Below, piece by piece: positions 5,157-46,732 of a stretch of 64,000 nucleotides of DNA. Both the position numbers and the translations under genes were made by a program. Within the stretch, counting starts at the first letter, position 1; each line of letters begins with the position of its first letter. The stretch is from Steroidobacter gossypii (lineage in GTDB: Bacteria; Pseudomonadota; Gammaproteobacteria; Steroidobacterales; Steroidobacteraceae): the NCBI RefSeq assembly GCF_016801985.1, contig NZ_JAEVLS010000003.1, positions 434,001 through 498,000 of the forward strand, in the 5' to 3' direction. The notes below the pieces were generated by a model. The model was given only the letters and a program-made list of their open reading frames with translations. It made no database searches and was not told the DNA's origin.

Positions 5157-6380
5157 ATGCGTGCGCGCGCGTTTCTCCATCCGGCAACCCAGGCCCCGGC
5201 GGATTCATCGGCGGCGACGGGAACTGTCGTAGCGCGCGACGCCGATAACAGCAGCGCCACCGGCCGCATCTCGATCCAGCTCATCGAACGTCGCGCGGAC
5301 ATCCCTCTGACCGCCGCAGCATGGAACGCCGTGGTCGCTCGCAACGAAACCAATTCCATTTTCCAGACGTACGAATGGTTCGATGCCTGGTGGCAAACAT
5401 TCGGCGCCGCGCATCAGCTGTTCTTTCTGCTGCTGCGAGCCGACAATCGAATCATCGGCTTCGCCGCGCTGATGTTGCGAAGGCGCTTGCTCGGCGGGAC
5501 TCGGCTCGAGTTCGTCGGCACGGGCAATGCGGACTATCAGGATGTCGTGGTGCTTCCCGGGCACAAGGGCGCGGCCATGATCGCGATCTGCGATTTCCTG
5601 CATGCGCACGCCGGTCGCTGGCGCTCGGCGTGGCTGTGCAACGTGCCGACTCAGTCCAGCACATTGAATTATCTGCGCAGTCTCGGCGCCGGGCACGAGT
5701 TGTATCTGGTCGATGAGGCGGTGCTGCGCTGTCCTTCGTTGCAGTTGCAGTCCGAGCAGCACGAGGCCGAGCGTCTGCTGAAGAAATACAGCATGAAGCG
5801 GCCGCTGAACTGGTTCGCAGCGCGCGGGGAGGTGCAGTTCCGCCACCTGTCCTCGCCGGCCGAGATTCAGCGGCAGCTGCCGGTGTTCTTCGATCAACAC
5901 GCAAGACGCTATCGCGCCGCAGGCCGGGCGAGCCTGTTCGAATCCGCCAGTCAGCGAGCGTTCTACACGAAGCTGGCCAGTACGATGCAAACCTCCGGGT
6001 GGTTGTTATTTTCCGTAGTGGAGTTCAACGGCCAACCCATTGCGTTTCATTTCGGCTTCGATTATTCCGGCAGCATCACCTGGTACAAACCTTCGTTCGA
6101 GGTGCGGTACGCAGAACATTCGCCGGGGCTGCTGCTGACGCGTAAGCTGATCGAGGACGGCATAGCGCGCGCGCGGCGTGAGGTCGATTTCACGATCGGG
6201 GATGAGCCGTTCAAAGACCGCTTCGCCAACATGTCGCGCTTCAACGAAACACTGCGCGTGTATCACAGTCGACCGAACGCATGGCGCGCACGCGTCTGGC
6301 GCTGGCTGCGGCGAACCATGAGCCGTGCACGTCGCGGCGTGCGGGGGCTGAGCTCCCTGACGGTGAGTACGGCGCGATGA
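5157..6380 (+). CDS. GNAT/CelD-BcsL-type acyltransferase
   Basis: A 407-residue protein of the double-GNAT acetyltransferase_6 (CelD/BcsL) type, associated with EPS and cellulose modification. The N-terminal half has the characteristic FQTYEWFDAWW motif followed by a GTRLEFVGTGNADYQDV strand. The C-terminal half has the acyl-CoA-fold signature IAFHFGFDYSG, then SPGLLLTRKLIEDG and the end-of-fold DFTIGDEPFKDRF. It likely transfers an acyl or aminoacyl group to a sugar precursor in the cytoplasm; donor and acceptor cannot be read from sequence. The first 40 residues are low-complexity Ala/Ser, so a later start is possible. Its stop overlaps the next ATG (ATGA at 6377-6380). Confidence 0.8.
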   Translation: MRARAFLHPATQAPADSSAATGTVVARDADNSSATGRISIQLIERRADIPLTAAAWNAVVARNETNSIFQTYEWFDAWWQTFGAAHQLFFLLLRADNRIIGFAALMLRRRLLGGTRLEFVGTGNADYQDVVVLPGHKGAAMIAICDFLHAHAGRWRSAWLCNVPTQSSTLNYLRSLGAGHELYLVDEAVLRCPSLQLQSEQHEAERLLKKYSMKRPLNWFAARGEVQFRHLSSPAEIQRQLPVFFDQHARRYRAAGRASLFESASQRAFYTKLASTMQTSGWLLFSVVEFNGQPIAFHFGFDYSGSITWYKPSFEVRYAEHSPGLLLTRKLIEDGIARARREVDFTIGDEPFKDRFANMSRFNETLRVYHSRPNAWRARVWRWLRRTMSRARRGVRGLSSLTVSTAR

Positions 6381-7449: not shown

Positions 7450-8580
7450 ATGATCTCGACGCGCCAGACCGTCGAGATCCTGCGACGGGTCGAGTCGCTT
7501 CAATCGTTGCTCTCGGGCTGGACCCATTTGCCGCAACCGGCTCAGCAATTGTGCCTTTCGCCGCAATGGCTCGCGACCGCCGCCGAAACGCTCCATGAGC
7601 CGGGCTCGCTGCGATGGATCCAGCTGTTGCGCGATGGTGAGGTCGCTGCTTCCGCGCCGCTCGTGCTTGCTCGAAGCGCCCAGGCGGAGCGCATCGAAAT
7701 CGCCGGGGCGGCGGTGCTGTTCGAGCCGTGCGGGTTTGTCTATCGGGATTCCGCCGCGCTCAGCGAGCTTTGCCGTGCTGTCATCGAAGCCGGTCGCCCG
7801 GTTGTTCTCCAACGCATTGCCCTCGACGATCCGCTGCTCCCCGCCTTCAAAGCGGCGGCGCGAGGGCGAGGGCAGCTGCTGCAATTCAGTGCAGCCGGCG
7901 CGCCGTTCGTCTCGATCGACGGAACCTGGGAGCAGTACCTGCAGTCGCTCTCGTCCCGGCGGCGACAGGATTTCCGCCGCGCCCGGCGGGCCCTGGAAAA
8001 GCTGGGGCGGGTGACGGTCGAGATCCAGACACCGTCCGCCGCGAGCGTGGATGCCGGTTTGTCGGAAGCCATGCAAGTCGAAGCGTCGAGCTGGAAGGCG
8101 CGCAACGGCAGCGCCATGCTGACCCATCCGGCTCTGGGCGGCTTCTACCGTTTGCTGGCGCGGCGGCTTGCGGCAGAAGGCCAGCTGCGGCTGTGTTTTC
8201 TAAGGCTGGACGGTGCGCCGCTGGCGATGCAGATCGCAGCCGTGTACGCGCAGCGCTGGTGGGTGCTCAAAATCGGCTACGACGAGCGCTGGGCCGAGCA
8301 TTCGCCCGGCGTCCAGCTGATGTGGGAGGCGCTGCGCGAGGCCTTCGGTCTGGGCCTTAAGACCTTCGAGATGTTGGGCAGCGCCGAGCCCTGGCTGACA
8401 ATATGGGCGCGTGACCGGCGGGACTATGGCACGCTGGCTTTCTACCCGTACAACCTACGCGGCACGATGGCGCTGGGCGCTGACATAATGGGCGCCCTGG
8501 CCCGACGCTGGCGCGGCCGGCAACAATCGGCGCAATCGCCGGGGAAAAAGCCAGCCACTGTCGCTGGGATTGACAGCTGA
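7450..8580 (+). CDS. Second GNAT/CelD-type acyltransferase
   Basis: A 376-residue relative of the 5157 gene, with the same two-lobed plan: an N-terminal lobe with LSPQWLATAAETL and LFEPCGFVYRDSA, a central basic helix (SSRRRQDFRRARRAL) typical of FemAB/CelD proteins, and a C-terminal lobe with APLAMQIAAVYAQRWWVLKIGYDERWAEHSPGV split over the usual strand-helix pattern. A GTG at 7441 (GTGA overlap with the GT2 stop) would add MTS; the ATG at 7450 is the alternative used here. Neither start has a strong ribosome site, so translational coupling is likely. It probably acylates an EPS sugar; the substrate is unknown. Confidence 0.78.
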   Translation: MISTRQTVEILRRVESLQSLLSGWTHLPQPAQQLCLSPQWLATAAETLHEPGSLRWIQLLRDGEVAASAPLVLARSAQAERIEIAGAAVLFEPCGFVYRDSAALSELCRAVIEAGRPVVLQRIALDDPLLPAFKAAARGRGQLLQFSAAGAPFVSIDGTWEQYLQSLSSRRRQDFRRARRALEKLGRVTVEIQTPSAASVDAGLSEAMQVEASSWKARNGSAMLTHPALGGFYRLLARRLAAEGQLRLCFLRLDGAPLAMQIAAVYAQRWWVLKIGYDERWAEHSPGVQLMWEALREAFGLGLKTFEMLGSAEPWLTIWARDRRDYGTLAFYPYNLRGTMALGADIMGALARRWRGRQQSAQSPGKKPATVAGIDS

Positions 8581-8678: not shown

Positions 8679-10607
8679 ATGTGTGGCATAGCAGGCACCC
8701 TTTATTTCGATGCGCAACGGCTGCCTGAGCAATCCCGGCTCGAGCGCATGGTGCAGGCGATCGCCCATCGCGGGCCGGACGGCGACGGCTATCACATCGA
8801 GCCGGGCGTCGGTCTCGGACATGCGCGTCTGAGCATCATCGATCTGGGCGGCGGCGCGCAGCCCATCCACAATGGCCGACGCACGGTGTGGATCACCTAC
8901 AACGGTGAGATCTTCAATTACATCGAGCTGCGCCAGTTCCTCGAAGCGCGCGGTCATCGTTTCTACACCCACACCGACACCGAAGTGATCGTGCATCTCT
9001 ACGAGGAGCTTGGTGATCGCTTCGTCGATGAGCTGAACGGACAGTTCTCGTTCGCGATCTGGGATCAGCCCAAGCGTCGCATGCTGCTGGTCCGCGACCG
9101 CGCCGGCATCCTGCCGCTGTATTACGCGAAGACCAAAGACGAATTGGTGTTCGCCTCGGAAGTGAAATCCATCCTCGCCAGCGGCGCCGTATCTGCCGCG
9201 CTGGATCCGGACGGCCTCGATGAGCTCATGACATTCTGGGCGCCCCAGGCGCCGCGAACCATGTTCCGGGGCATCAGCCAGCTCGGTCCCGGCGAGATGC
9301 TGATCGTCGAGAACGGCGCGATGGTCCACAAGAAATATTGGGAGTGGAGTTTCCCTGAACCGGGCGAGCATCGCCGCGCCGCCCAGGGCGATCTCGAACA
9401 CGAGCTGCGCGAGATTCTCGCCGACGCCACCCGATTGCGTCTGCGTGCGGACGTTCCGGTCGGCGCCTATCTGTCGGGCGGCCTGGACTCCTCGACGCTC
9501 GTCGCGCTGTTACAGGAGCGCGTGCCCCAGACGCTGCGCACGTTCTCGATCGGGTTCGACGATGCCGGGCTGGATGAGTCCGTGCACCAACGTACAGTCG
9601 TGGATTATCTACGCACCTCGCACAATCACGTGCAGTGCTCGACCGCCGATATCGCCCGTGCGTTCCCCAGAACCATCTATCACAGCGAGATGCCCGTGCT
9701 GCGCACGGCGCCCGCGCCGATGCAGATGTTGTCAGGCCTGGTGCGTCGTTCGGATGTGAAGGTGGTGCTGACCGGCGAGGGCGCCGACGAGGTGCTCGGC
9801 GGCTACGATATTTTTAAGGAAGCCAAGGTGCGGCACTTCTGGGCGCAGCAGCCCGAATCGAGCTGGCGGCCGGGCCTGCTGAAGCGGCTGTATCCGTATC
9901 TGAATCTCACGTCCGCGCAGAGCGCGGCGTATCTGAAGGAATTCTTCGGCGTCGGGCTGCAGAATCCGGACGATCCATGTTTCTCGCATCTACCGCGCTG
10001 GGCCACCACGGCCCAATGCAAGTTGTTCTGGTCCGATGATCTGCGCAGCCGTGTGCAAGGCTCGGCGGTGGAGCGACTGCGCGACTCGCTGCCGGCGCAG
10101 ATGCGCGGTTGGCACCGCTTCAATCGCGGCGAATATCTCGAAGCCAAGACGCTGTTGCCGAGCTATCTGCTCTCGGCGCAGGGCGATCGCATGCTGATGG
10201 CGAGTTCGGTGGAGGGGCGCTTTCCGTTCCTGGACCATCGCCTGATCGAGTTCGCGAACCGCTTGCATCCGCGCTACAAAATGCGCGTGCTGAAGGAGAA
10301 GCACCTGTTGAAGCAGGCGATGCGTGAGCGCTTGCCTGGCGCCATTCTGCAGCGGCATAAGCAGCCGTACCGGGCGCCGGACGCGGCGGCCTTCGTCGGC
10401 TCACAGCCGCCCGAATATGTGACAGAATTGCTGAGTCCGCAGGAAATCGCGCGTTACGGCTATTTCGACCCCGACAAGGTCGCGCGTCTGGTCGCCAAGC
10501 TACAGCGGGCCAAAGTCCCGGCGGCTCGCGACAACATGGCCTTGGTCGGCATCCTGTCCACCCAGTTGTGGCACGCGCAGTTCGTCGCGGGCCGGAAGTT
10601 CGAGTAG
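8679..10607 (+). CDS. AsnB-like amidotransferase of the EPS cluster
   Basis: A 642-residue two-domain class II amidotransferase. The N-terminal Ntn-glutaminase domain starts MCGIAGTLYF with Cys2 as nucleophile after Met removal, which fixes the ATG at 8679. HRGPDGDGYH and YNGEIFNY follow. The C-terminal synthetase domain has the PP-loop LSGGLDSS at residue 265 and the VVLTGEGADEVLGGY motif. In XrtA EPS loci such AsnB relatives are thought to amidate an acidic sugar or acyl substituent rather than aspartate. The next genes encode an ACP, an acyl-AMP ligase and a NadE-like PP-loop enzyme, so the substrate may be carrier-bound (inference). A second AsnB is at 32418-34265. Confidence 0.88.
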   Translation: MCGIAGTLYFDAQRLPEQSRLERMVQAIAHRGPDGDGYHIEPGVGLGHARLSIIDLGGGAQPIHNGRRTVWITYNGEIFNYIELRQFLEARGHRFYTHTDTEVIVHLYEELGDRFVDELNGQFSFAIWDQPKRRMLLVRDRAGILPLYYAKTKDELVFASEVKSILASGAVSAALDPDGLDELMTFWAPQAPRTMFRGISQLGPGEMLIVENGAMVHKKYWEWSFPEPGEHRRAAQGDLEHELREILADATRLRLRADVPVGAYLSGGLDSSTLVALLQERVPQTLRTFSIGFDDAGLDESVHQRTVVDYLRTSHNHVQCSTADIARAFPRTIYHSEMPVLRTAPAPMQMLSGLVRRSDVKVVLTGEGADEVLGGYDIFKEAKVRHFWAQQPESSWRPGLLKRLYPYLNLTSAQSAAYLKEFFGVGLQNPDDPCFSHLPRWATTAQCKLFWSDDLRSRVQGSAVERLRDSLPAQMRGWHRFNRGEYLEAKTLLPSYLLSAQGDRMLMASSVEGRFPFLDHRLIEFANRLHPRYKMRVLKEKHLLKQAMRERLPGAILQRHKQPYRAPDAAAFVGSQPPEYVTELLSPQEIARYGYFDPDKVARLVAKLQRAKVPAARDNMALVGILSTQLWHAQFVAGRKFE

Positions 10608-10616
10608 CAATTTCGT

Positions 10617-10638
10617 ACGCGAGCAGCGACGCTCGCGT
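10617..10638 (+). repeat. 8-bp inverted repeat (hairpin) between amidotransferase and ACP genes
   Basis: ACGCGAGC at 10617-10624 and GCTCGCGT at 10631-10638 are perfect complements around a 6-base loop. No T-run follows, so it is not a standard intrinsic terminator. It may tune message stability or partial termination within the operon. Confidence 0.55.
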
Positions 10639-10683
10639 CAGCCGCCTTCAGATCATCGATCGATAGATAACCGAGGAAACCTC

Positions 10684-10941
10684 ATGACCGACGCGCTGCG
10701 TGAACAAGTTCGCGCCTTCATCCTGGAAAACTACCTGTTCACCGACGACAAGTCGGCGCTCGGCCTGGACGATTCGCTGCTCGAGCGCGGCATCGTCGAT
10801 TCCACCGGCATGCTGGAGATCATCTTTTTCATCGAAGAGCAGCTGGGCGTGAAGGTGAAGGACGAGGAGATGATCCCGGACAACCTGGACGGCGTGAACA
10901 AGATCGCCGCGTTCGTGCACTCCAAGCGTCAGGCCGCCTGA
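10684..10941 (+). CDS. Acyl carrier protein, EPS-associated
   Basis: An 85-residue acidic four-helix carrier protein. Ser40 in GIVDSTGMLEI is the predicted 4-phosphopantetheine attachment site; the usual DSL is DST here, which marks it as a specialised ACP rather than fatty-acid AcpP. The start is supported by GAGGAAACC just upstream of the ATG. It lies between an AsnB-like amidotransferase and an acyl-AMP ligase (19 bases downstream), so the ligase probably loads it with a carboxylic or amino acid that is then transferred to sugar. Standalone ACPs of this kind are known in exosortase A loci, but their cargo is unassigned. Confidence 0.88.
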   Translation: MTDALREQVRAFILENYLFTDDKSALGLDDSLLERGIVDSTGMLEIIFFIEEQLGVKVKDEEMIPDNLDGVNKIAAFVHSKRQAA

Positions 10942-10960
10942 CGAGCCGTTGTTTGCGGAC

Positions 10961-12466
10961 ATGAGCGGCTCGCTGATTCATGATTTCGACCAGTGCGCCC
11001 GGCAGACGCCGGACGCGCCGGCGTTGTCGTGGCATGGCGATGTATGGACGTATGGGCAGCTGCGTCGTGCGGTCGGTTGCGCGCAGGGCATCCTCGTTCG
11101 CAACGGCATCGCGCCGGGCTCGCGTGTTGCGCTCTTCGTTCGCAATTCACCTCAGTATGTCGCGAGCTATTTCGGGGTCATGGCTGCGGGCTGCGTCGCC
11201 GTGCCGCTCAACGTGCAGGAGCGCGCCAGCGTTCTTTCGCGACAGATCGAGCATGCGGACTGCCGGGTCGTGATTGCCGATGCTGGACATCCCGAGTGGG
11301 CGGCATTGTCCGTCGCTCTCTCTGCCGTGGCGCCGCTGACCGTGACCGTCGACCTGCAGCCGGGCAGCGCGGGATGCGATCAGTTCTGTGCGGCGCTCGG
11401 CGCGGCTGAGCCGGAGCTGCGAGATCTTCCGGCCAATGCACCGGCCATGATGATCTACACCTCGGGCACGACCTCGCGTCCCAAGGGTGTCGTGTTGAGC
11501 AACGGCAATCTGCTCGCCAATGCTCGCGCCATCGCCGCCTATCTGAAGATCCAGCCTTCGGACAAGGTGCTGTGCGGGCTGCCATTCCATTTCTCTTATG
11601 GCAGCTCGGTGTTGAACAGCAATGTGATCGCCGGCGCGCAGCTGCTGCTGGAAGATAACTTTGCGTTTCCTCAGCAGACGCTCCGACGCATGCAGGACGA
11701 GCGCGTCACCGGTTTCCCCGGCGTGCCGTCGACGTTTGCGCTGTTGCTGGGCCGTTGCCAATTGAGCGACTTCGATCTTTCTCAGCTGCGTTACATCACT
11801 CAGGCCGGCGGCTCCATGCCGCGCGCGCAGATCGAGAAGCTGCGGGAGCAGTTGCCGCATACACAGGTGTTCATCATGTACGGCCAGACCGAGGCAACGG
11901 CGCGTCTGAGCTATCTCGATCCGACCGAGCTCGAGCGCAAGTTGGGTTCGGTAGGCAAGCCGCTGCCGGGCATCGACATCGAAATTCGTGCCGAGGGGCG
12001 CGTGCTGCCGGCAGGCGAGGTGGGCGAGATCTGCGCGCGTGGCCCGAATGTCATGCTCGGCTACTGGCGGCAGCCGGAGTTGAGCGCCCAGGTGTTGCAA
12101 GACGGCTGGCTGCACACCGGCGATCTCGGTCACTTCGACGAAGAAGGTTTTCTATACATCGACGGCCGTGCCGTCGACATGATCAAAGTCGGCGCGTTCC
12201 GCGTCAGCCCGCAGGAAGTCGAGGAAGTGCTGGCCACGTTCCCCGGCGTGCAGGAAGTCGCGGTGACCGGCATCGCCGATCCGGTGCTGGGTCAGGCGAT
12301 CAAGGCCGTCATCGTGCTGCGTGAAGGCGTGGCCGCCGATCTCATGGGCGTGAAGGCGCATTGCCGCCAGAACCTGGCCAATTACAAAGTGCCGAAGGTC
12401 GTCGAGTTCGCCGCCTCGCTGCCGCGCACCTCCTCCGGCAAAGTTCAACGTTTCAAACTCGCTTGA
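10961..12466 (+). CDS. Acyl-AMP ligase (ANL superfamily), likely ACP-loading
   Basis: A 501-residue adenylate-forming enzyme. Core motifs in order: the P-loop MIYTSGTTSRPKGVV (about residue 165), the aromatic MYGQTEATARLSYL (A5), LHTGDLGHFDEEGFLYIDGR (A7/A8) and the late PRTSSGKVQR with the catalytic Lys. It activates a carboxylate as acyl-AMP and passes it to CoA or, more likely here, to the ACP encoded just upstream. The ATG at 10961 is chosen over the in-frame TTG at 10949. The substrate cannot be read from sequence. Two other adenylating enzymes occur in the locus (18965-20566 and 34268-35674, both on the minus strand). Confidence 0.88.
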   Translation: MSGSLIHDFDQCARQTPDAPALSWHGDVWTYGQLRRAVGCAQGILVRNGIAPGSRVALFVRNSPQYVASYFGVMAAGCVAVPLNVQERASVLSRQIEHADCRVVIADAGHPEWAALSVALSAVAPLTVTVDLQPGSAGCDQFCAALGAAEPELRDLPANAPAMMIYTSGTTSRPKGVVLSNGNLLANARAIAAYLKIQPSDKVLCGLPFHFSYGSSVLNSNVIAGAQLLLEDNFAFPQQTLRRMQDERVTGFPGVPSTFALLLGRCQLSDFDLSQLRYITQAGGSMPRAQIEKLREQLPHTQVFIMYGQTEATARLSYLDPTELERKLGSVGKPLPGIDIEIRAEGRVLPAGEVGEICARGPNVMLGYWRQPELSAQVLQDGWLHTGDLGHFDEEGFLYIDGRAVDMIKVGAFRVSPQEVEEVLATFPGVQEVAVTGIADPVLGQAIKAVIVLREGVAADLMGVKAHCRQNLANYKVPKVVEFAASLPRTSSGKVQRFKLA

Positions 12467-12497
12467 ATCGCAACCCATAAAGTCTTTAGAGGTATTC

Positions 12498-13490
12498 ATG
12501 GCCGCACGCAAGCCGCTCGATGCATCGGTGCTGGAGATGGACAACGATCGTGTCATCGAGACGATCACCACGCGCTTGCGCTCGATTCTCGCCAAGGATG
12601 TGGGCCGTCGCGGTTTCGTATGCGCCATGTCTGGCGGCATCGACAGCTCGGTGAGCTCCGCGCTGTGCGTGAAGGCACTCGGCAAGGACAAAGTGTACGG
12701 CCTGATGTTGCCCGAGCGCGATTCCTCCGGCTTCAGCACCGCCCGAGGTCGCCAGCTCGCCGAACATCTGGGCATTCGCTACGAAGTGTTCGATATCGCG
12801 CCGGCGCTGGAAGGCATCGGTTGTTACCAGTGGCGCGACGAGGCCATTCGCAAAGTGTTTCCTGAATACGGCGAGGGCTGGAAGAACAAGATCGTCATCA
12901 GCGGCGGGCTGGAAGGCCAGATCAATCATTTTCAGCTGGTGGTGCAATCGCCGCAGGGCGAAACCAGGCAGGCGCGCCTGCCGTTGCCGGAATATCTGCA
13001 GATCGTCGCGGCGACCAATCACAAGCAGCGCATTCGTAAGACGGTCGAGTATTTCCATGCCGATCGGCTGAACTACGCGGTCATCGGCACGCCCAACCGG
13101 CTCGAATACGATCAGGGCTTTTTTGTGAAGAACGGCGATGGCAGCGCCGATGTGAAGCCCATCGCGCACCTGTACAAGACGCAGGTGTATGCGCTCGCCC
13201 GGCACATGCAGCTGCCGAAAGAAATCTGCGAGGCCATTCCGACCACCGACACCTACAGCCTTGCGCAGGGTCAGGACGAGTTCTATTTCGCGTTGCCTTA
13301 CCAGCAGATGGACATCGCGCTGTACGCACTCAACCACGGCTACTCCTCGGAGGAGCTGGCGGCCGCCATCAACATCACGCCACAGCAGGCCGCCAATGTG
13401 TATCGTGACATCGAAGCCAAGCGACGCGCGACGCGCTACATGCACCTGAGGCCGCAGCTGGTCGAGCCGGTGAACGAGATCAAGGTCTGA
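12498..13490 (+). CDS. NadE-like ammonia-dependent PP-loop amide ligase
   Basis: A 330-residue protein of the NAD synthetase family without the glutaminase domain. The ATP PP-loop is MSGGIDSS (Ser45 to Ser51). Downstream it keeps the family block GFFVKNGDGSADVKPI and a PTTDTY segment. Where NAD synthetases have GTDHAAE it reads GTPNRLE, so the catalytic Glu is kept but the nicotinate-pocket side differs. The start has AGAGG at 12488-12492. Because it sits inside an ACP/ligase/amidotransferase operon, a recruited amide-forming role on a sugar or acyl group is more likely than NAD synthesis. That is inference; housekeeping NadE activity is not excluded. Confidence 0.75.
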   Translation: MAARKPLDASVLEMDNDRVIETITTRLRSILAKDVGRRGFVCAMSGGIDSSVSSALCVKALGKDKVYGLMLPERDSSGFSTARGRQLAEHLGIRYEVFDIAPALEGIGCYQWRDEAIRKVFPEYGEGWKNKIVISGGLEGQINHFQLVVQSPQGETRQARLPLPEYLQIVAATNHKQRIRKTVEYFHADRLNYAVIGTPNRLEYDQGFFVKNGDGSADVKPIAHLYKTQVYALARHMQLPKEICEAIPTTDTYSLAQGQDEFYFALPYQQMDIALYALNHGYSSEELAAAINITPQQAANVYRDIEAKRRATRYMHLRPQLVEPVNEIKV

Positions 13491-13515
13491 CGGCAGGGCG
13501 GACGCTGACGAGACC

Positions 13516-14646
13516 ATGCAAGTGGAGACGTTCTTCTGGGTGTGCCTGGTGGCGATCGCGTATCCGTACGCGATCTATCCTGCGCTGCTGGTGGCCATCA
13601 ACCGGCTCGCGGGCCGCAAGACTCATGCGGGGGCCGAGCGCTACGAGCCGACCGTCACGGTGATCCTGCCCGTGCACAACGAGGCGCGACGCATCGAGGC
13701 GCGGCTGCGCAATCTGGCGGAGCTGGACTACCCCAAGGACAAAATGCAGATCCTGGTGATTGGCGATGCGTGCACCGACGACACGCTGGCGCGGGCGGCG
13801 CGCTTCGAATCGGTCACCACGCTCAACTTGCCGACTCGCGCTGGCAAAGCCGCCGGGCTCAACGCCGGGCTGGAGCGGGCCACCGGCGAGATCGTCGTGT
13901 TCACCGACGCCGGCATCATTCTGGAGCGGCAGTCGCTGCGCGCGCTGCTCGCGCACTTCACCGACCCCGCAATTGGTTGTGTGTCTGGCGAAGACTATAT
14001 CGAGGGCACGCAGACCGAAGGTCTGTATGGCCGGCTCGAGCTGCTGCTGCGGCGAGAGGAGGCGAAGCTGCACTCGATCGCCGGCGCGAGCGGATGTTTC
14101 TATGCGCAGCGTCGCGAGCTGTGCAAGCCGTTCATCGCCGGCATGGCGCCCGACTTCCTCTCCGTGCTGGTCACGGTCAAGGCTGGCAAGCGAGCGCTGG
14201 CCGAGCCGCTGGCGCGCGGCTCGATGACCGCGACGTCGAGTCAGAGCGCCGAGTTCACTCGCAAGGTGCGGACCTTTCAACGCGGACTCACAGCGCTGTT
14301 CGGCAACGCCAGTCTGCTCAATCCTTTCGGCTACCCGGCTTTCAGCTTCATCCTCTGGTCGCACAAGCTGATGCGATGGCTTGCGCCTTTGCCGATGATC
14401 GGCTGCTTGCTGGCGGCGTGGACGCTGCGCTCGCAGCCGCTGTATCTGCTGATGTTTGTCGGTCAGGCCGTGTTGTACGTCGCGGCCGTCGCCGGTCTGA
14501 AGTGGCCCACGCTGGCCGCGAAAGTGTCGCTGGTCCGGCTCGGCGCCTTTTTCCTCCTGGTGAATGTCGCGGCGCTCAAAGCGCTGGCGCTGTGGCTGTC
14601 GGGCTCTCGGGTGGAAATCTGGGAGCCGACGAGGAGGCCGGGATGA
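13516..14646 (+). CDS. Membrane-bound family 2 glycosyltransferase
   Basis: A 376-residue processive-type GT2. It has an N-terminal hydrophobic anchor (FFWVCLVAIAYPYAIYPALL), then the GT-A core with VTVILPVHNEARRIEARL, a nucleotide motif GDACTDDTL and the DxD-like VFTDAGIIL. An ED pair in CVSGEDYIEG may be catalytic. Three hydrophobic segments follow near the C-terminus (about 285-365). This plan matches inner-membrane EPS/cellulose-like transferases that act on a lipid carrier. A 25-base gap separates it from the NadE-like gene, and its stop overlaps the next start (ATGA at 14643). Confidence 0.85.
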   Translation: MQVETFFWVCLVAIAYPYAIYPALLVAINRLAGRKTHAGAERYEPTVTVILPVHNEARRIEARLRNLAELDYPKDKMQILVIGDACTDDTLARAARFESVTTLNLPTRAGKAAGLNAGLERATGEIVVFTDAGIILERQSLRALLAHFTDPAIGCVSGEDYIEGTQTEGLYGRLELLLRREEAKLHSIAGASGCFYAQRRELCKPFIAGMAPDFLSVLVTVKAGKRALAEPLARGSMTATSSQSAEFTRKVRTFQRGLTALFGNASLLNPFGYPAFSFILWSHKLMRWLAPLPMIGCLLAAWTLRSQPLYLLMFVGQAVLYVAAVAGLKWPTLAAKVSLVRLGAFFLLVNVAALKALALWLSGSRVEIWEPTRRPG

Positions 14647-15482
14647 GCGCCGCGCGGCCTTTGATCGAAGAGCCGGTATTTCTGGGCTCGGGCGACGAGC
14701 GGCTGTTCGCGTTTCTGCACCCGGCGGCGCAGGCCGCGCGTGGCACGATCGTGATGTGCCACGCCTTCGCCGAGGAGAAGCTGTGGTCGCATCGCGTGTA
14801 TGTGACTTTCGCGCGTGAGGCGGCGCAGGCAGGTTTCAACGTGCTGCGCTTCGATATGCGCGGCGAAGGCGATAGCGCGCTGGATTTCGAGCAGTCGACC
14901 ATCGAGACGCGCATCGAAGATACCTTGCGGGCGATAGCCGCCGCGAAGAATCGATGGTCGACCCACGACGTCGTACTAGTTGGTCATCGCCTGGGAGGCT
15001 CGATCGCGGCTGTTGCTCAGACACGTGCGGCGAGCGACGTACGCGCCGTGGCCATTTGGGATCCCATCCTGGATGGCGAAGATTATTTCGGTCAGCTGCT
15101 GCGCTCGAACATGACGACGCAGATGGCCACGCAGGGCAAAGTCACCCGCATGCGAGATGCGCTGATCAAGGCCATCCTGGATGGTGAGGTCGTGGTGGTC
15201 GACGGCTACGGCCTGACCGCGGATCTGTATCGAGGCATCGCGGCGCTGCGTCTGGCGCAGCGGGAGGAGCTGTTCCAGGGACCGGCGCTGCTCATCGAAG
15301 TACCCAAGGGCGAGCAGAATGCGCCGTCCGAGCCGCTCAGGGTCCTCGCCTCGACGCGTCCGCGGTTGCAGCTCGCGTTGGAAGCCGAGCCGCCGTTCTG
15401 GCGCGAAACCAAGCAATTTCACAAGCGGGCCGGCGGGTTCACCGCCGACACGCTCGAATGGCTCAACGGATTGACGACATGA
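14643..15482 (+). CDS. Alpha/beta-hydrolase-fold protein, exosortase A-associated type, Arg at nucleophile position
   Basis: A 279-residue alpha/beta-hydrolase-fold protein with the CHAFAEEKLWSHRVY oxyanion strand region and LRFDMRGEGDS. The nucleophile elbow reads VLVGHRLGGS: Arg116 replaces the usual Ser, so classical serine-hydrolase chemistry is not expected. Paired noncanonical hydrolases are a known feature of exosortase A EPS loci (hydrolase 1/2 families), and this looks like the hydrolase 2 type. It may bind an acyl-ACP or act as a non-hydrolytic partner (inference). The start at 14643 overlaps the GT2 stop (ATGA); the longer frame upstream is an artefact over the GT2 gene. Confidence 0.8.
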   Translation: MSAARPLIEEPVFLGSGDERLFAFLHPAAQAARGTIVMCHAFAEEKLWSHRVYVTFAREAAQAGFNVLRFDMRGEGDSALDFEQSTIETRIEDTLRAIAAAKNRWSTHDVVLVGHRLGGSIAAVAQTRAASDVRAVAIWDPILDGEDYFGQLLRSNMTTQMATQGKVTRMRDALIKAILDGEVVVVDGYGLTADLYRGIAALRLAQREELFQGPALLIEVPKGEQNAPSEPLRVLASTRPRLQLALEAEPPFWRETKQFHKRAGGFTADTLEWLNGLTT

Positions 15483-16426
15483 GCGAACAGATCGTTTCGC
15501 TAAGAAACAGCGCGGGGCATGCGCTGCACTGCATGTTCGAGCTGCCGCCGCCCGGCGCTCCCAAGACCGATCTCGGCTGTGTGCTGTTGTCGCCGGGCGT
15601 TAAAATGCGGGTCGCTCCGCATCGGCTGTATCGCAAGCTTGCTGCCGAGTTTCTCGAGCGCGGTATCGCGGTGATGCGCGTGGATTTCCACGGGCTCGGC
15701 GATTCCGAAGGCGATCTGCCCGAGCAGCAGCTCGATCAGTTGTACCGCCAGGTGCAGCTTGGCCGCCATGTGGACGATGCGCGCACGGCCTTGCGCTGGT
15801 TGCAGCGGGAGCACGGTTTGAAACGTTTCGTGATCGGCGGCCTGTGCGGTGGCGCGTTGACGGGATTGTTGGCCTCGGAGGTCGACGAGTCAGTCGTCGC
15901 CTTGTACGCCATCGGCATTCCCGTGGTGCTGGATGCGTCAGGTCAGCACGAGTCACAGAACATGACCCAGGGTCAGCTGCGTGACATGCGTGGAACGTAT
16001 CTTTCCAAGCTGATGAACCCGTCCGCGTGGCTCCGGCTGCTGAGTTTCAAGAGCGACTTCCGCTCCATTCTGCGCTCGCTGTTTCCGAAGCTCGGCGCGG
16101 GCGCGAAGGGCAAAACGGTCAGCGATACGCGGGTGCCGCCGCCGGAAAGCGCGACGGCCGCAAATCTCAATCCGAAATATGCTCCGGCAATGTTCGGCTT
16201 GTTGCAACGGAACCGTTCGGCGCTGCTCATTTTCAGCGGTGCGGATCGATTGCAGTTCGAATATCAGGAGAAGTTCGTCGCGCCCTGGCGCGCCGCGCTG
16301 GAGAAGTTCGCATCGCTGTTGACCGTCGAGGTCATTCCGCAGGCAAATCACGTGTTGGGCGATCCCGCCTGGATGGCGCAGGCGCGGGTGTTGACGGGCC
16401 GCTGGCTGGATGAGCGATTCAAGTGA
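15479..16426 (+). CDS. Alpha/beta hydrolase, exosortase A-associated type, Cys at nucleophile position
   Basis: A 315-residue alpha/beta-hydrolase-fold protein. VLLSPGVKMRVAPHRLYRK and MRVDFHGLGDSEGD form the N-terminal strands. The elbow is VIGGLCGGAL, with Cys123 where Ser is expected. A late FSGADRLQFEYQEKF could supply the Asp and QANHVLGD the His of a Cys-His-Asp triad. A Cys nucleophile suits acyl transfer or thioester chemistry, which fits the ACP upstream (inference). This resembles the exosortase A hydrolase 1 family. The start is the ATG at 15479, in a 4-base overlap with the previous stop; the stop overlaps the following GTG start. Confidence 0.8.
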   Translation: MSEQIVSLRNSAGHALHCMFELPPPGAPKTDLGCVLLSPGVKMRVAPHRLYRKLAAEFLERGIAVMRVDFHGLGDSEGDLPEQQLDQLYRQVQLGRHVDDARTALRWLQREHGLKRFVIGGLCGGALTGLLASEVDESVVALYAIGIPVVLDASGQHESQNMTQGQLRDMRGTYLSKLMNPSAWLRLLSFKSDFRSILRSLFPKLGAGAKGKTVSDTRVPPPESATAANLNPKYAPAMFGLLQRNRSALLIFSGADRLQFEYQEKFVAPWRAALEKFASLLTVEVIPQANHVLGDPAWMAQARVLTGRWLDERFK

Positions 16427-17571
16427 ACGCCGCTGCCAACATGATGCCGGCGAGGCGTCCACTGCGGGTGCTGCATCTTCGCGATTCGCCGTGGGTGGAC
16501 GGGCCCGGACGCACGATTCTCGAGACCGGTAGTCACATCGACGCCCAGCGCGTCGAATATCACATCGGCGCGTTCGCCTCGGGCGGCAAGCATGCGCTGG
16601 TGGAAGGCGCGCAAGCGCGTGGCCTCAACGTGCACGTGATACAGGATCGGCGGGGCATTGCTGCCGAGCTGGTCGACCGTATCGTCGAGCTCATCGATCG
16701 GCTGCAGATCGATGTCTTGCACACCAGTGAGTTCCGCTCCAACGTGCTTGCGTTGCTGGTGCGTCGCCGCCGCCCGATCAAACTTGCCTGCACGGCGCAT
16801 GGTTGGATCGCGAACGATCTGCGCGGACGCGTGTTTCGCGCAGTCGACAAGTTCGTTCTGCCTCGCTTCGATGTGGTGTTTCTGGTATCGCAGGCGACGC
16901 GCAATCTGGTGCCGCGCTGGTGGCTGCCGGATCGTCGCGTGCAGGTGTTGCCGAACGCGCTGGTGCTCGGCGTTTATGGTCGTGAGATCGTGGAGACGCC
17001 CAGGCCCAAGCGCGACACCAGCGCCGGCGCGACCGTGCTCAATGTCGGCCGTCTATCGCCGGAGAAGGGACAGGACTTGCTGTTGCGGGCCATCGCCGCA
17101 CTTGCGCCACGCTATCCCAGGTTGAAACTTCAGTTCGCCGGCATCGGGCCACTGGAGCAGGAACTGCGCGCCCTGGCGGCCTCGCTGGGCATCGCCGATC
17201 GGGTCGAGTTTCTGGGCTACATCGACAACATGCCCAAGCTGTATGCCGATATCGACCTGGTGGTACAAAGCTCGTTCACCGAAGGCATGCCCAACGTCAT
17301 CCTGGAGGCGGCCTACCTGCGGGTGCCCATCGTGGCGACCGCGGTCGGCGGCACGGCGGAAGTGGTCGAGCATGGCAAGGGCGCGTGGCTGATTCCGCCG
17401 CATTCGCTCGAGGCGCTCACCGCCGGCATCGAGCGCTACTTGCGCGATCCGGACGGGTTCGCCAGGATGGGGGACGCCGCGCACGCCCGTGTGTGTGCGG
17501 AGTTCTCCTTCGATGTCCGGACCCGCAAGCTCATGGACGTCTACGAAAGACTCTGCAGCGTGAGCGCATGA
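16423..17571 (+). CDS. Family 4 glycosyltransferase
   Basis: A 382-residue GT-B fold retaining glycosyltransferase. The N-terminal domain begins with LRVLHLRDSPWVDGPGRTI. The C-terminal domain has VLNVGRLSPEKGQDLLLRAI and the GT4 EX7E signature in SFTEGMPNVILEAAYLRVP, followed by VATAVGGTAEVVEHG. The GTG at 16423 overlaps the previous stop (GTGA); ATGs at 16441/16444 are alternative starts. It is cytoplasmic and likely adds an internal EPS sugar to the lipid carrier. It sits directly before the O-antigen-ligase-like gene. Confidence 0.88.
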   Translation: MNAAANMMPARRPLRVLHLRDSPWVDGPGRTILETGSHIDAQRVEYHIGAFASGGKHALVEGAQARGLNVHVIQDRRGIAAELVDRIVELIDRLQIDVLHTSEFRSNVLALLVRRRRPIKLACTAHGWIANDLRGRVFRAVDKFVLPRFDVVFLVSQATRNLVPRWWLPDRRVQVLPNALVLGVYGREIVETPRPKRDTSAGATVLNVGRLSPEKGQDLLLRAIAALAPRYPRLKLQFAGIGPLEQELRALAASLGIADRVEFLGYIDNMPKLYADIDLVVQSSFTEGMPNVILEAAYLRVPIVATAVGGTAEVVEHGKGAWLIPPHSLEALTAGIERYLRDPDGFARMGDAAHARVCAEFSFDVRTRKLMDVYERLCSVSA

Positions 17572-18974
17572 ACCGGCGCCGCCAAGCGCAGGTCACGCCC
17601 GAACAAGTCGAGCGCAGTACTCGCATCTACTACTATTGGCTGCTGCTCGCGCTGTTCCTGGAATACGCGCGCCCGGCCAGCTACTTCGCTTTTCTGCGAG
17701 TGCCGTTCCTTTACAGCGCCATTCCTTTGTCGCTGTTCGTCGCCACGTGCTTTGCGCCCGGCATGCGGTCGATGCGCGAGATCCTGGCGGATCCGCTCAC
17801 CAAATGGATCCCGATCTTCGTCGCCCTGATCGCGTTCTCGTTTGCTCACGCCGACGTGAGCCTCTATGTGTACAACATCTTCAAGCTGGTGTTGGGCTAC
17901 GCGATCATGTTCATCATGATCGCGCGCATCGTCACCAGCGAGGCGCGGTTTCGGGGCGTGATCGCGACGTTGCTGCTCGCCCATTTGTTCCTGCTCGCGA
18001 TGAATCCCGCCGTCGTGATGAACCCCAACGAGCGCAACTACATCATCGGCGCGACCTTCCTCGGCGACGGCAACGATTTCTCCATGTCGCTGTGCATCCT
18101 GATCCCGTTCGCCATCTCGATGGCGCTCGGCGCGACCACGCGCTGGGGCCGCTGGTTTGCCTGGGCAGGCGTGGGCATCGGGTTGCTGGCGATCATCGCC
18201 TCTCAGTCCCGAGGTGCGGCGCTGGGCTTGGGCGCGGTGCTGATCTATCTGTGGCTCATCAGCCCGCGCAAGATGGCGGTGCTGGCCGGTGTGGCCGTGG
18301 TCGGCCTGGTGGTGCTGGTCTACGCGCCGCCAGTCTATTTCCAGCGACTCGGGACCATCGCCAACTACGAGACGGAAGGCTCCGCCATGGGCCGCATCAC
18401 CGCCTGGAAAGCCGGCCTTCGCATGGCTGCCGATCATCCGATCACCGGCGTCGGCGCGGGTCATTATGCGATTTCATTCGGCACAAAATATCGGCCGCCC
18501 GAAGCGCAGGGCATGCCCTGGCTCACGGCGCACTCCAGCTACTTCCTGGTGCTGGGCGAGCTGGGCCTGCCGGGCATCATCACTTTCCTGGTGCTCACGT
18601 GGGGCAACATCCGTGCGAACGGCAAGATGCGGCGCTTCGTGCGCAAGCGCGCCGGACCCGATGTGGATCCGGCCAAGCTCGCCTTTGCGAATCGAGTGCT
18701 CGTGCTCAGCAGTGGCGCGGTGCTGGGCTTCGCGACGGCCGGCGCGTTCCTGTCCGCGGCTTACTATCCGCACGTGTTCGTGTTCACCGGCTTGTTGCTT
18801 TCGCTTCGAAACATGGTCGCGACATCGCTGAACGTGAGCGTTGCGGAGGCGCTGGGACGCAATCCGGCGGTTCGCAAGCCGCGTCGGGGCATCGCGGTGC
18901 CGCCGGCGACCGATGATCCGAAGGGCGGCGGCCAGGTCGCGACGCCCTCGCTCGGGCGCCGACCTCAGGCCTGA
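17568..18974 (+). CDS. O-antigen ligase/polymerase-like membrane protein, exosortase A-associated type
   Basis: A 468-residue polytopic protein of the WaaL/Wzy family, with about ten hydrophobic segments. The large periplasmic loop near the C-terminal half holds the RITAWKAGLRMAADHPITGV and AHSSYFLVLGELG signatures of the O-antigen ligase domain. It polymerises or ligates EPS repeat units in the periplasm. Exosortase A loci typically include a related putative O-glycosylation ligase. The ATG at 17568 overlaps the GT4 stop (ATGA). An upstream in-frame extension to 17385 lies over the GT4 gene and is rejected. The gene end overlaps the convergent acyl-ligase gene by 10 bases. Confidence 0.88.
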   Translation: MNRRRQAQVTPEQVERSTRIYYYWLLLALFLEYARPASYFAFLRVPFLYSAIPLSLFVATCFAPGMRSMREILADPLTKWIPIFVALIAFSFAHADVSLYVYNIFKLVLGYAIMFIMIARIVTSEARFRGVIATLLLAHLFLLAMNPAVVMNPNERNYIIGATFLGDGNDFSMSLCILIPFAISMALGATTRWGRWFAWAGVGIGLLAIIASQSRGAALGLGAVLIYLWLISPRKMAVLAGVAVVGLVVLVYAPPVYFQRLGTIANYETEGSAMGRITAWKAGLRMAADHPITGVGAGHYAISFGTKYRPPEAQGMPWLTAHSSYFLVLGELGLPGIITFLVLTWGNIRANGKMRRFVRKRAGPDVDPAKLAFANRVLVLSSGAVLGFATAGAFLSAAYYPHVFVFTGLLLSLRNMVATSLNVSVAEALGRNPAVRKPRRGIAVPPATDDPKGGGQVATPSLGRRPQA

Positions 18975-20566
18975 CGACTCACATAATCCGTTCGGGAGCT
19001 CTCGATCCATTTCGCGAGAGCGGGCCGATCGGGCTTGCCGTTGGCGTTTCTGGGCAACGCTTCGAGCACATGGATGTCGGCGGGCGCCATGTACGGCGGC
19101 AGATGCAGCCGGCAATGGCGGCGGATCCGCTCGATCAGCGCTTCTGCGTCGCCGACGCTGCCAGCCACCGCCACCACGATCTTCTGACCGAGCAGCTCAT
19201 CGGCGATGCCCAACGCCACGTTTTCGATCACGCCGTCGACTTCGCTCACGATGTCCTCTATCTCGGTCGAGCTGACTCGATAGCCGGATGTTTTGATCAG
19301 CTGGTCGGCGCGCGCCACGAAATACAGATATCCGTCGGCATCGGTGCGCGCCAGATCGCCCGACCATACCGCCATCTCGCCGGCAGTCGCCGTGGACACC
19401 CAGGCGGGCACGGAGCGAAAGCGCCTGGCCGTGGCCTCGGGGTTGTTCCAATAGCCTTGCGCGACCAATGAGCCGCGGTGAACCAGCTCGCCGGTCTCGC
19501 CCGGCTCGCAGCGGCTCCCGTCGGATCGCACCAGCAGGATTTCCTGATTGGGAATGGCCTTGCCGATCGAGCCGCGTCGCTCATCGATCCGGTCGGGATC
19601 GAGATAGGTCGAGCGGAACGCTTCGGTGAGCCCATACATGCAGAACAGGCGCGCCGAGGGCAGACGCGCGCGCAGCGAGCGAATCAGAGTTTGAGTCAGC
19701 GCGCCGCCCGAATTGGTGATGTATCGCAGTCTGTCCCGTGCAGCGGCGGGCCATTCGGCCGCGGCCAGATACGCCCACATGGTCGGCACACCAGCGAGAC
19801 CGGTGATCTTTTCGGCCGCTGCCTCCTGCACGATGGCGGCGGGCATGGAATAGTTGGTGAGCGTCGCGCAGGCGCCGACGTGAAAGGCGGTCGTGATCTG
19901 ACTCAGTCCGTAATCGAAGCTCAGCGGCAGGGCGGCGAGCAGGCGATCGTCCGAAGTGTTCTCGAGGTACTGAGCGACACACACCGCCCCGGAGACCAGG
20001 TTGTGATGCGAGATCATCACGCCCTTGGCGGGGCCGGTGCTGCCGGAGGTATACAGAATGGCCGCGAGGTCCCGATCGATCGCCACGGCGTTCGCGCCGA
20101 TCGGCTCGTATGAGCGCAGCTCCTCGATGCGCAGCTGACGCACCTCGCGGCGAATCTGCTTCAGCGATTGTTTGGCCTCGACCAGCACGACGTTGCGCAC
20201 GGCGCCGCTGTCTTCGATGCTCGATAAGGCGTAGGGCAGCAGCGAGTCGGAGAGCACCAGCGTCGTGGCGCCGCTGTCGCGCAGGATATGAGTGAGCTGA
20301 CGGCTGCGAAGCATCGGGCTCACCGGGATGAATATCGCGCCCATGCGGCTGCAAGCCAGCGCGATTTCGACGGCCTCGGGGCGGTTCGGCAGGAAGATCA
20401 CCACTCGATCGCCGCGCGCCACGCCCAGCGCTTGGAGGCCGCTCGCCGTGCGCATGCTGATGTCCTGCAGCTGCGCATAGGAAGTCCCCTCACCCCGATA
20501 ACGCACGGCGTCTTTGCCGGGCGTCAGGCGGGTGGATCGATCCAGAAGGTGGTGCAGTAACGTCAT
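18965..20566 (-). CDS. Acyl-CoA/acyl-AMP ligase, exosortase A-associated type
   Basis: A 533-residue ANL-superfamily enzyme. The P-loop is ILYTSGSTGPAKGVMISH; MYGLTEAFRSTYL is the A5 motif; the SGDLARTDADGYLYFVARAD region is A7; PRNANGKPDR near the end carries the catalytic Lys. It resembles the AMP-forming ligases catalogued with exosortase A systems (TIGR03098-like). In other genomes that family is often next to a PLP decarboxylase and an ACP; here the ACP is at 10684 and no decarboxylase is seen. It is the second acyl-adenylating enzyme of the locus, on the opposite strand, so it may serve a different carboxylate. Confidence 0.88.
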   Translation of the reverse strand: MTLLHHLLDRSTRLTPGKDAVRYRGEGTSYAQLQDISMRTASGLQALGVARGDRVVIFLPNRPEAVEIALACSRMGAIFIPVSPMLRSRQLTHILRDSGATTLVLSDSLLPYALSSIEDSGAVRNVVLVEAKQSLKQIRREVRQLRIEELRSYEPIGANAVAIDRDLAAILYTSGSTGPAKGVMISHHNLVSGAVCVAQYLENTSDDRLLAALPLSFDYGLSQITTAFHVGACATLTNYSMPAAIVQEAAAEKITGLAGVPTMWAYLAAAEWPAAARDRLRYITNSGGALTQTLIRSLRARLPSARLFCMYGLTEAFRSTYLDPDRIDERRGSIGKAIPNQEILLVRSDGSRCEPGETGELVHRGSLVAQGYWNNPEATARRFRSVPAWVSTATAGEMAVWSGDLARTDADGYLYFVARADQLIKTSGYRVSSTEIEDIVSEVDGVIENVALGIADELLGQKIVVAVAGSVGDAEALIERIRRHCRLHLPPYMAPADIHVLEALPRNANGKPDRPALAKWIESSRTDYVSRQA

Positions 20567-25750: not shown

Positions 25751-26822
25751 TCGGCGGGCCCAGTTGCCGCGTCACTGCCAGTGGCAGGCGTTGCCAGGCC
25801 GCTATCGCCAGTCGATATTTTGGATTGCTCACGTTGAGCGCCGGCAGCGCGGCGGAGGCGGGCTGACCTGGCCGATGGTAGTACCAGTGAAGCTGCTGGG
25901 ATTCCGAATTCCAGCGCCGCTTGAAGTCCTCGGCGCCGGAGGCCGCCGTGGAGCGGCCCAGATGGAAGCTGTGACAGCCTCGCAGGCACGCGTCACGGAT
26001 CATCTCCCAGTACAGCACGAAGTTGGCGTCGAGTTGCCGCGCCAGCGCGCCGCCACCGGCCCACATCCCTTCGACCGTGCCGTTGAAATAGCCGTTGAAG
26101 GTCACCGCCACAGGCTCGTCGTTGCGATGACAAAGAAAGATCGCGGTGTGCTCGGGAAACGTGCGCAGGATTCGTTCGAAGTAGTCGCGCCGGTAGAGCG
26201 GCGTGCCGAGGTTGCGCCAGGATTGCTCCATCATCTCATAGAACACCGGCAGCAGATCCTGCCCGCCCTTGCGAACTGCCAGGCCATGCTTGTACGCGCG
26301 CTTGATGTTGTTGCGATGTTTGCTGGTGAAGGCGTTCCACAGTACGTCCGGATCGGCGTTCAGGCCGATGGTCATGCTGATCTTGTGCAGCGAGACGGGC
26401 AGATCGACCGGCAGCGTCTGGGGACTGCGCAGCTCCAGATAGTCGACTCGCAGCTCGTCGGCCTTGGCGATCGCGGCATGGAGCAGCGCGCGGTGACTGT
26501 CGATGTCGTCGGCGCAAGGGCCGCCGAAGTTGACGAAGGGCAGGGAGCAAAGGATTCGTCCGAACAGAAGGCTGCTCACCAGGGTCAGCGGCAACACGCC
26601 GGTGACGACCTCGCCACGACGAGCGACCAGGTAGAACGAGCGATGCCCGAGCGCCGCCGAGTTCACTTCCTTCCAGTCGTACAGGTGATAGAAGGACGCG
26701 CTCGGGCAGCGGGCCAGATAGCCATCCCATTCGGCGCGCTCCGATGCAGCGACGGCCTCGCTTACCACGGGCGCGGCCAGGTGCGACACGGGGGACTCAG
26801 TTTCGGTCAACGCTGAGGACAT
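25731..26822 (-). CDS. FemAB-family XrtA/PEP-CTERM-associated protein
   Basis: A 363-residue FemAB-like double-GNAT protein, matching the PEP-CTERM system-associated FemAB type (TIGR03019-like). Motifs: SFYHLYDWKEVNSAALGH near residue 43, FVNFGGPCADD, the basic KHRNNIKRAYKHGL helix, and the family-typical FHLGRSTAASGAEDFKRRW near residue 308. FemAB relatives transfer aminoacyl groups from aminoacyl-tRNA; in EPS loci a role in aminoacyl or acyl decoration is assumed, not shown. It is the first gene of a minus-strand run with the aminotransferase, deacetylase and ATP-grasp ligase. Confidence 0.88.
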   Translation of the reverse strand: MSSALTETESPVSHLAAPVVSEAVAASERAEWDGYLARCPSASFYHLYDWKEVNSAALGHRSFYLVARRGEVVTGVLPLTLVSSLLFGRILCSLPFVNFGGPCADDIDSHRALLHAAIAKADELRVDYLELRSPQTLPVDLPVSLHKISMTIGLNADPDVLWNAFTSKHRNNIKRAYKHGLAVRKGGQDLLPVFYEMMEQSWRNLGTPLYRRDYFERILRTFPEHTAIFLCHRNDEPVAVTFNGYFNGTVEGMWAGGGALARQLDANFVLYWEMIRDACLRGCHSFHLGRSTAASGAEDFKRRWNSESQQLHWYYHRPGQPASAALPALNVSNPKYRLAIAAWQRLPLAVTRQLGPPIARLIP

Positions 26823-34265: not shown

Positions 34266-34267
34266 GG

Positions 34268-46681: not shown

Positions 46682-46732
46682 CGGCAGTCAGAAGGGCAGT
46701 TGTAGGTGTTTTGGCGGTGCTGCGTGGGAAGT

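Follow-up and report, generated by a model that had tools for sequence, protein, structure and literature searches.

Locus and setting

The 7.1 Mb genome of Steroidobacter gossypii contains, within the 64,000-nucleotide stretch analyzed here (the window, positions 434001-498000 of its contig), consecutive genes for an AsnB-like glutamine amidotransferase, an acyl carrier protein (ACP)-like carrier, an AMP-forming ligase and a NadE-like PP-loop enzyme. An initial annotation had grouped them with GT2 and GT4 glycosyltransferases, two alpha/beta-hydrolase-fold proteins, an O-ligase and a second ligase into a ten-gene, ACP-centered module inside an exopolysaccharide (EPS) operon. All of the genes it named are present at the place and on the strand assigned to them, and Ser40 of the carrier protein was correctly picked out. 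The real unit is smaller and comprises the following four core genes:

8679..10607, plus strand, AsnB-like glutamine amidotransferase with glutaminase (Cys2) and PP-loop synthetase domains (MCGIAG start, SGGLDSS)
10684..10941, plus strand, carrier protein (ACP) with the motif DSTG at Ser40
10961..12466, plus strand, AMP-forming ligase 1, non-amino-acid class (alternative TTG start at 10949; Ser216 is numbered from that TTG)
12498..13490, plus strand, NadE-like PP-loop enzyme, putative amide synthetase (SGGIDSS; NF002048 match)

The annotated region sits inside an XrtA polysaccharide locus. The xrtA gene (TIGR03109; 223 bits against a cut-off of 208) is found at G000:C25:429165, 4 kb to the left of the window and about 13 kb from asnB, and the XrtA-type chain-length (TIGR03007), deacetylase (TIGR03006) and FemAB (TIGR03019) proteins of the locus exceed their curated cut-offs. 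From asnB to the GT4 gene the intergenic spacing is, in order, 76, 19, 31, 25, -4, -4 and -4 bases, as in one operon; a promoter and terminator scan gave no signal exceeding that of shuffled sequence.

Conservation of the four-gene cassette

A search of named genomes with the NadE-like protein gave 540 candidate stretches at E 1e-3 or better, ordinary NadE not being separated, of which the best 80 (62-91% identity) were kept; the closest named match, at 91%, belongs to a Steroidobacter metagenome-assembled genome. A search for relatives over 98 genomes found the NadE-like gene in 16, the window's own counted. Genes were called by codon scoring and clustered in 90 non-duplicate loci, a set that leans to the near relatives of the query; short stretches (L001-L022) and duplicates (L103, L106, L107, L109 and L111) were left out of the counts. 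Within 7 kb of the NadE-like gene, the ligase was found in 84 of the 90 loci, the ACP in 82 and AsnB in 66, and the full four-gene set was present in 54 of 62 well-flanked loci, or in 64/90 when loci cut by contig ends are counted. Two gene orders are frequent, asnB-ACP-ligase-nadE and asnB-ligase-ACP-nadE. The ACP-centered grouping of a ligase with two amide-forming enzymes, as the initial annotation had perceived it, is real and widely conserved, but its ten-gene boundary was rejected, since the hydrolases occur near only five of the 62 well-flanked loci; it is the four-gene core that recurs across genomes, the GT2, GT4, O-ligase and hydrolase genes being local.

Since the 90-locus sample favors near relatives, the count was repeated on genomes drawn evenly from the phylum, where the NadE-like gene was detected in 13 of 299 genomes. 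Besides the window's own, 12 loci were fetched from this sample (16-20 kb each), and the ACP and the ligase were present in all 12, AsnB in 11 and the four genes together in 11. In 20 control stretches, taken at hand-chosen positions from eight genomes (the window's own and seven relatives), no member of the four core families was found.

AsnB is missing within 7 kb in 24 of the 90 loci. Nine of those genomes were searched and eight encode AsnB elsewhere (49-60% identity), including one partial match (G371) and one copy in a second cassette, L169 (G375); the best AsnB of the ninth reaches only 33% identity. In four Thiomonas-type genomes (L164, L166, L167 and L168) the distant AsnB adjoins a cassette-type GNAT gene.

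The catalytic motifs are intact. The N-terminal Cys motif of AsnB is retained in 65 of the 68 cluster members longer than 500 residues and SGGxDS in all 70 rows, while the Asp-Ser motif of the carrier protein is invariant (85/85 rows), the window copy reading DSTG at the predicted modification site. The nearest solved chains of the carrier are mostly peptidyl and D-alanyl carrier proteins, and the cassette's ACP model finds a single carrier protein in the window, that at 10684-10941. The window's AsnB belongs to TIGR01536, asparagine synthase (glutamine-hydrolysing), with 495 bits against a cut-off of 267, and its best solved sequence relative is 7ylz, titled hydroxyamidotransferase.

The cassette was also considered as an XrtA-specific set and this was rejected, the XrtA deacetylase cluster being present in 14/90 and the kinase cluster in 13/90 loci, some of them cut short. 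In the Thiomonas-type loci L061 and L099 (also L049, L079 and L091) a ligase-ACP-NadE-PrmC group stands alone, no polysaccharide gene being recognized, and proteins near such groups in Thiomonas-type loci were taken, by eye, for glutamine synthetase and NtrC-like. A second carrier protein (PP-binding) is encoded about 2.5 kb beyond the cassette of Steroidobacter agaridevorans (L076:13444-13689).

The NadE-like enzyme

The NadE-like gene is a patchily distributed extra gene, additional to the ordinary NadE (249 bits) of the window's genome. Its product exceeds the cut-off of the NCBI model PRK00876/NF002048, named NAD(+) synthase (495 bits against 313). Across 276 genomes of the class, 12 score 465-501 bits, one broken copy scores 260 and the remainder 92 or less. 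A second NadE-type match in a frame of 544-593 amino acids, judged from score and length alone, is found in eight of 11 other carriers, and no NadE-like gene other than the copy at 12498 was found in the window. The predicted structure (pLDDT 92.6) has NAD/NMN synthetases as top fold matches and bears an extra strand-rich insert at about residues 129-160. The family carries the name NAD(+) synthase, yet the members examined mostly reside in a carrier-protein cassette (54/62 well-flanked loci); judging from sequence and gene context, they are probably misannotated and act as amide synthetases other than NAD synthase. A partial PRK00876 copy with one in-frame stop, at G216:C8:107991-108506, is apparently a decayed gene.

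Ligase classes and a PrmC-like methyltransferase

Two classes of cassette ligase were distinguished by the residue at the Asp site of amino-acid adenylation, which is Asp in 19 of 84 typed loci and another residue in 65; in the one Asp-class member that was aligned, the FD motif matches that of amino-acid adenylation domains. Ligase 1 of the window has Ser at this site and falls outside the amino-acid-adenylating class (Dlt-like or nonribosomal peptide synthetase (NRPS)-like), while the second ligase of the window has Asp.

Ligase class is tied to a gene for a PrmC/HemK-like glutamine-amide methyltransferase, represented by that of L045 (202.6 bits against the PrmC cut-off of 199.1). The gene was present in 18/19 Asp-class loci vs. 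0/65 others in the first set and in 7/7 vs. 0/7 in later loci, 25/26 vs. 0/72 when pooled; among the later loci, the L175 gene was recognized by tblastn and a model, and in L171 no NadE-like gene is in view. Among members of the second set, all six that were read have the PrmC signature NPPY. On the NadE tree the pairing of Asp class and PrmC-like gene changes six times, at least three of these changes being forced by well-supported branches. PrmC-type enzymes methylate a side-chain carboxamide. That the PrmC-like gene follows the Asp-class ligase suggests that, for this class at least, the carrier-bound group bears the amide, and this tie offers a specific handle on what the carrier bears. 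A methyltransferase gene of the window beside ligase 2 (20663-21808) was considered as PrmC-like and rejected, with 24 bits to the PrmC model and UbiG-type NCBIfam matches.

Neighboring genes and candidate transfer partners

Around the core, the window encodes the following:

5157..6380, plus strand, GNAT/FemAB-like acyltransferase A, candidate transfer enzyme (PF13480)
7450..8580, plus strand, GNAT/FemAB-like acyltransferase B, candidate transfer enzyme (PF13480), immediately 5' of asnB
13516..14646, plus strand, GT2 glycosyltransferase, local EPS gene
14643..15482, plus strand, hydrolase-2-like alpha/beta fold protein with Arg116 at the nucleophile elbow (GHRLGG)
15479..16426, plus strand, hydrolase-1-like alpha/beta hydrolase with Cys123 as nucleophile (GLCGG)
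16423..17571, plus strand, GT4 glycosyltransferase
17568..18974, plus strand, Wzy/O-antigen-ligase-like protein
18965..20566, minus strand, second AMP ligase (ligase 2), TIGR03098 member, amino-acid class (FDYG, Asp218)
25731..26822, minus strand, FemAB-type XrtA-associated acyltransferase (TIGR03019, 300 bits against a cut-off of 260), of the family that VimA resembles

GNAT/FemAB-like proteins are encoded near 40 of the 62 well-flanked loci vs. 0/20 controls and EPS markers near 32/62 vs. 1/20, a contrast inflated by the fact that the neighbor models were made from clusters of the same loci. Placement inside an EPS operon, as initially proposed, holds for the window, but only these 32 of its 62 relatives have a recognized EPS marker close by. 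An equivalent of acyltransferase B occupies the same place in L023, L104 and L105, and a GT2 homologue adjoins nadE in these loci and in L024. The GT2, GT4 and O-ligase genes vary by lineage. When 21 of the 32 GNAT-cluster members were scanned, ten matched Acetyltransf_9 and seven Acetyltransf_1; single scans gave no family for the GNAT-like clusters.

Other lineages have other neighbors. A beta-ketoacyl-ACP synthase III (KAS III) gene occurs in eight of the 90 loci, mostly beside a small protein without family match that was taken, by eye, for a second carrier. Six of the 12 phylum-sample loci have a thioesterase gene close to the set (identified by Pfam in L176 and L183 and by tblastn in the others); all six belong to a different class of the phylum (presumably Alphaproteobacteria), and they are the same six that have an Asp-class ligase and a PrmC-like gene. 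In L175 the thioesterase shares one frame with an adenylation-like region (a ligase model match) and a carrier-like motif read by eye. The thioesterase model had no match across the 90-locus set. The enzyme that receives the carrier's product seems to vary with lineage, the candidates being GNAT acyltransferases, KAS III or thioesterases.

Relation to the exosortase-A gene set

Elements of the region had initially been catalogued with exosortase A. The locus is indeed an XrtA locus and ligase 2 passes the TIGR03098 cut-off (640 bits against 592), being the only XrtA-labeled gene of the annotated region to exceed that of its family. The other labeled genes score below theirs: AsnB with 438 bits against 817 for the XrtA amidotransferase family (TIGR03108, WbpS-type), ligase 1 with 357 against 592 (TIGR03098), hydrolase 2 with 109 against 203 (TIGR03101), hydrolase 1 with 71 against 168 (TIGR03100) and the O-ligase with 135 against 188 for its XrtA family. 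For most genes of the region, exosortase-A labels are resemblances by sequence score.

The hydrolases form a conserved pair. In the window and seven further loci (L041, L070, L064, L040, L088, L117 and L074) one partner has Cys (8/8) and the other Arg (8/8), and among ten loci picked by TIGR03101 (L194-L203, six of them above its cut-off) Cys was seen in nine and Arg in nine, the Arg of L198 not being found and the Cys of L196 being unread. With Arg at the nucleophile position, hydrolase 2 has the look of a conserved pseudo-hydrolase partner. The ACP gene lies directly 5' of hydrolase 2 in seven of these ten loci and the amino-acid Asp signature is present in all eight ligases found, a pattern suggestive of aminoacyl-ACP chemistry for the classic XrtA set; no NadE-like gene was found in the ten. 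The hydrolases were undetected in the fetched stretches of the close relatives L023, L024, L104 and L105, and a search of the window's genome with the hydrolase 1 family gave no member above cut-off. The proposal that a Cys-type hydrolase moves the acyl group to sugar as a general step was abandoned: hydrolases so rare near the cassette (5/62) make that role unlikely, they are local, and GNAT/FemAB-type neighbors are commoner. A TIGR03099 decarboxylase partner was likewise rejected, only below-cut-off matches being present in the window's genome.

Two further features of the locus were recorded. A second AsnB homologue with an adjoining PaaK-like AMP ligase is encoded on the minus strand at 32418-36004. 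A PEP-CTERM-like protein at 46706-47500 (76 bits against the NF038120 cut-off of 80) is a possible exosortase substrate.

Proposed mechanism and alternative explanations

The best explanation, to which we give about an even chance of being right, is a carrier-loading and amidation cassette with a lineage-specific transfer partner; its substrates, the placement of the amide on the acyl group, the acceptor and the sequence of reactions are what we infer from the genes. The ligase would load a small carboxylic acid, or an alpha-amino acid in the second ligase class, as a thioester on the carrier, charging the phosphopantetheine on Ser40. The cassette would convert a carboxylate to a carboxamide at the expense of ATP. 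The NadE-like enzyme lacks a glutaminase domain and would form amides from ammonia in association with the ligase/ACP pair; AsnB would draw on glutamine and may amidate either the same group or an acceptor, for example a uronic acid. Once amidated, the group would go to a partner that varies between lineages. In the window, transfer by the GNAT/FemAB-like proteins at 5157-6380 and 7450-8580 to an amino sugar of the XrtA-locus polysaccharide is favored, the GT2, GT4, O-ligase and hydrolase pair probably representing the local polysaccharide and exosortase-A gene set. From the ligase/ACP/amide model of the initial annotation, carrier chemistry stands as likely, and the links to the PrmC-like gene and to the thioesterase (6/12 loci) point to a carrier-bound amide. 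Should the cassette decorate surface sugars, it would add a carrier-protein route for carboxamide groups.

Several observations weigh against this explanation. Two amide formers are one more than a single amide requires, and the conserved NadE core motifs (PP-loop and GFFxKxGDG-type) are compatible with NAD synthetase activity. Positions tracking ligase class number 13 in the ligase, two in NadE and none in ACP or AsnB, in a comparison with groups set by hand and few AsnB rows in one of them; the target of NadE and AsnB may therefore be a moiety that both classes share, or may lie off the acyl group. Only 12 of 19 first-set PrmC-like members read NPPY and five read LPPY, and a paired test on the NadE tree (two changes in the same direction, none opposite, one undecided) was not significant with so few events. 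The enrichment of neighbors is inflated, as noted above, and the GNAT model finds just two of the 12 phylum-sample loci. Finally, 30/62 well-flanked relatives have no recognized EPS marker nearby and three loci belonging to a different class of the phylum appear non-EPS, so that an EPS product is not general.

Three alternatives were weighed. The amides might lie on sugar rather than on the carrier: an acyl or aminoacyl group would come from ligase and ACP, while AsnB and NadE amidate sugar carboxylates to a uronamide, perhaps on a nucleotide sugar. The known NadE substrate is a nucleotide-linked carboxylate, and such a division of labor agrees with the scarcity of class-tracking positions in AsnB and NadE relative to the ligase, and with the separation of AsnB and GNAT from ligase-ACP-NadE in the four Thiomonas-type genomes. 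AsnB also resembles, at 438 bits, the XrtA amidotransferase family to which WbpS and WbqG are assigned, and deletion of WbpS, an AsnB homologue of P. gingivalis, loses the uronamide of the linking sugar, according to the sections considered of PMC7468200. We give this possibility an appreciable but minor chance, as AsnB stays under the cut-off of that family, nearly half of the well-flanked loci have no recognized EPS marker, and the presence of the PrmC-like methyltransferase depends on ligase class, in keeping with an amide located on the acyl group.

A free-standing NRPS-like pathway to a small amide or peptide metabolite, for instance an N-methylated glutamine derivative in Asp-class loci, with residence in EPS loci being incidental, has a small chance in our view. 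It would account for the likeness of the carrier to peptidyl carrier proteins, for the thioesterase gene in exactly those phylum-sample loci with Asp-class ligase and PrmC-like gene, and for the composite frame of L175; it is at odds with the lack of thioesterase matches in the 90-locus set, with the enrichment of N-acyltransferase-like and glycosyltransferase genes around those loci, and with ligase 1 of the window, which is outside the amino-acid class. It is very improbable that the NadE-like gene encodes a true second NAD synthetase, a passenger in an otherwise ordinary acyl-ACP decoration set. Its score above the NAD(+) synthase subfamily cut-off, retained motifs and top folds speak for such an activity, but the same genome has another NadE, as apparently do eight of 11 other carriers, a wide score gap sets the family apart, ACP and ligase are near-constant company and the protein has an extra insert.

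In a more speculative reading, the two ligases of the window share the single carrier detected to build an amidated, amino-acylated sugar, which would serve as the point to which exosortase A attaches the new C-termini of PEP-CTERM proteins. The membership of ligase 2 in TIGR03098 and its Asp signature, shared by all eight ligases found in L194-L203, are consistent with this reading, for which the chance is slim. If true, it would point toward the compound to which PEP-CTERM proteins are attached and give a genetic basis for an amino-acid-modified sugar, which the authors of PMC7468200, in the part considered, speculate that exosortase systems may use. The interest of the cassette itself lies in its conservation, the probable misannotation and the strong methyltransferase link.

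Comparison with known systems

No description of a ligase-ACP-NadE-AsnB set was found in the literature searched, namely open-licence PMC articles, most subscription papers being outside reach. The main text of Haft 2006 (PMC1569441) has no occurrence of ligase, acyl carrier, asparagine synth-, hydrolase, amidotransferase or decarboxylase, and the portion considered of PMC9850573 has no relevant gene.

Stand-alone AMP-forming enzymes beside stand-alone carriers are shared with adenylation-domain/carrier pairs of the DltA/DltC and PltF/PltL types (names in part from PDB molecule titles), whose carriers make up most of the nearest solved relatives of the cassette's carrier; the cassette differs by its two amide-forming ATPases and, in the window, by a ligase 1 without the amino-acid Asp. 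From NadE/NMN synthetases the NadE-like protein differs by its strand-rich insert, its occurrence in addition to ordinary NadE and its operonic company of ACP and ligase. The exosortase-A set (TIGR03098, TIGR03100, TIGR03101) shares with the window a ligase, an ACP and the Cys/Arg hydrolase pair, and ligase 2 passes its TIGR03098 cut-off, but the set has no NadE-like gene in the ten loci examined and the window hydrolases fall below its cut-offs. As for the hydroxyamidotransferases TsnB9/SaHAT, the best solved relative of AsnB, 7ylz, bears that title, its likeness to TsnB9 being presumed; their gene context differs from that of AsnB, and SaHAT activates a free carboxylate with ATP according to the part considered of PMC13418202.

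The Wbp/Vim linking-sugar pathway (WbpS/WbqG) shares an AsnB-type amidotransferase and FemAB/VimA-like acyltransferases in sortase-linked glycan loci, while sections 12 and 20 of PMC7468200 name no ACP, ligase or NadE-like enzyme for it. In the same source, serine is swapped for glycine on the linking sugar when VimA, a protein similar to the XrtA FemAB family, is exchanged. In the portion considered of PMC11340318, where no ACP is named, an exosortase-associated amidotransferase is among the transposon-hit genes affecting colony morphology.

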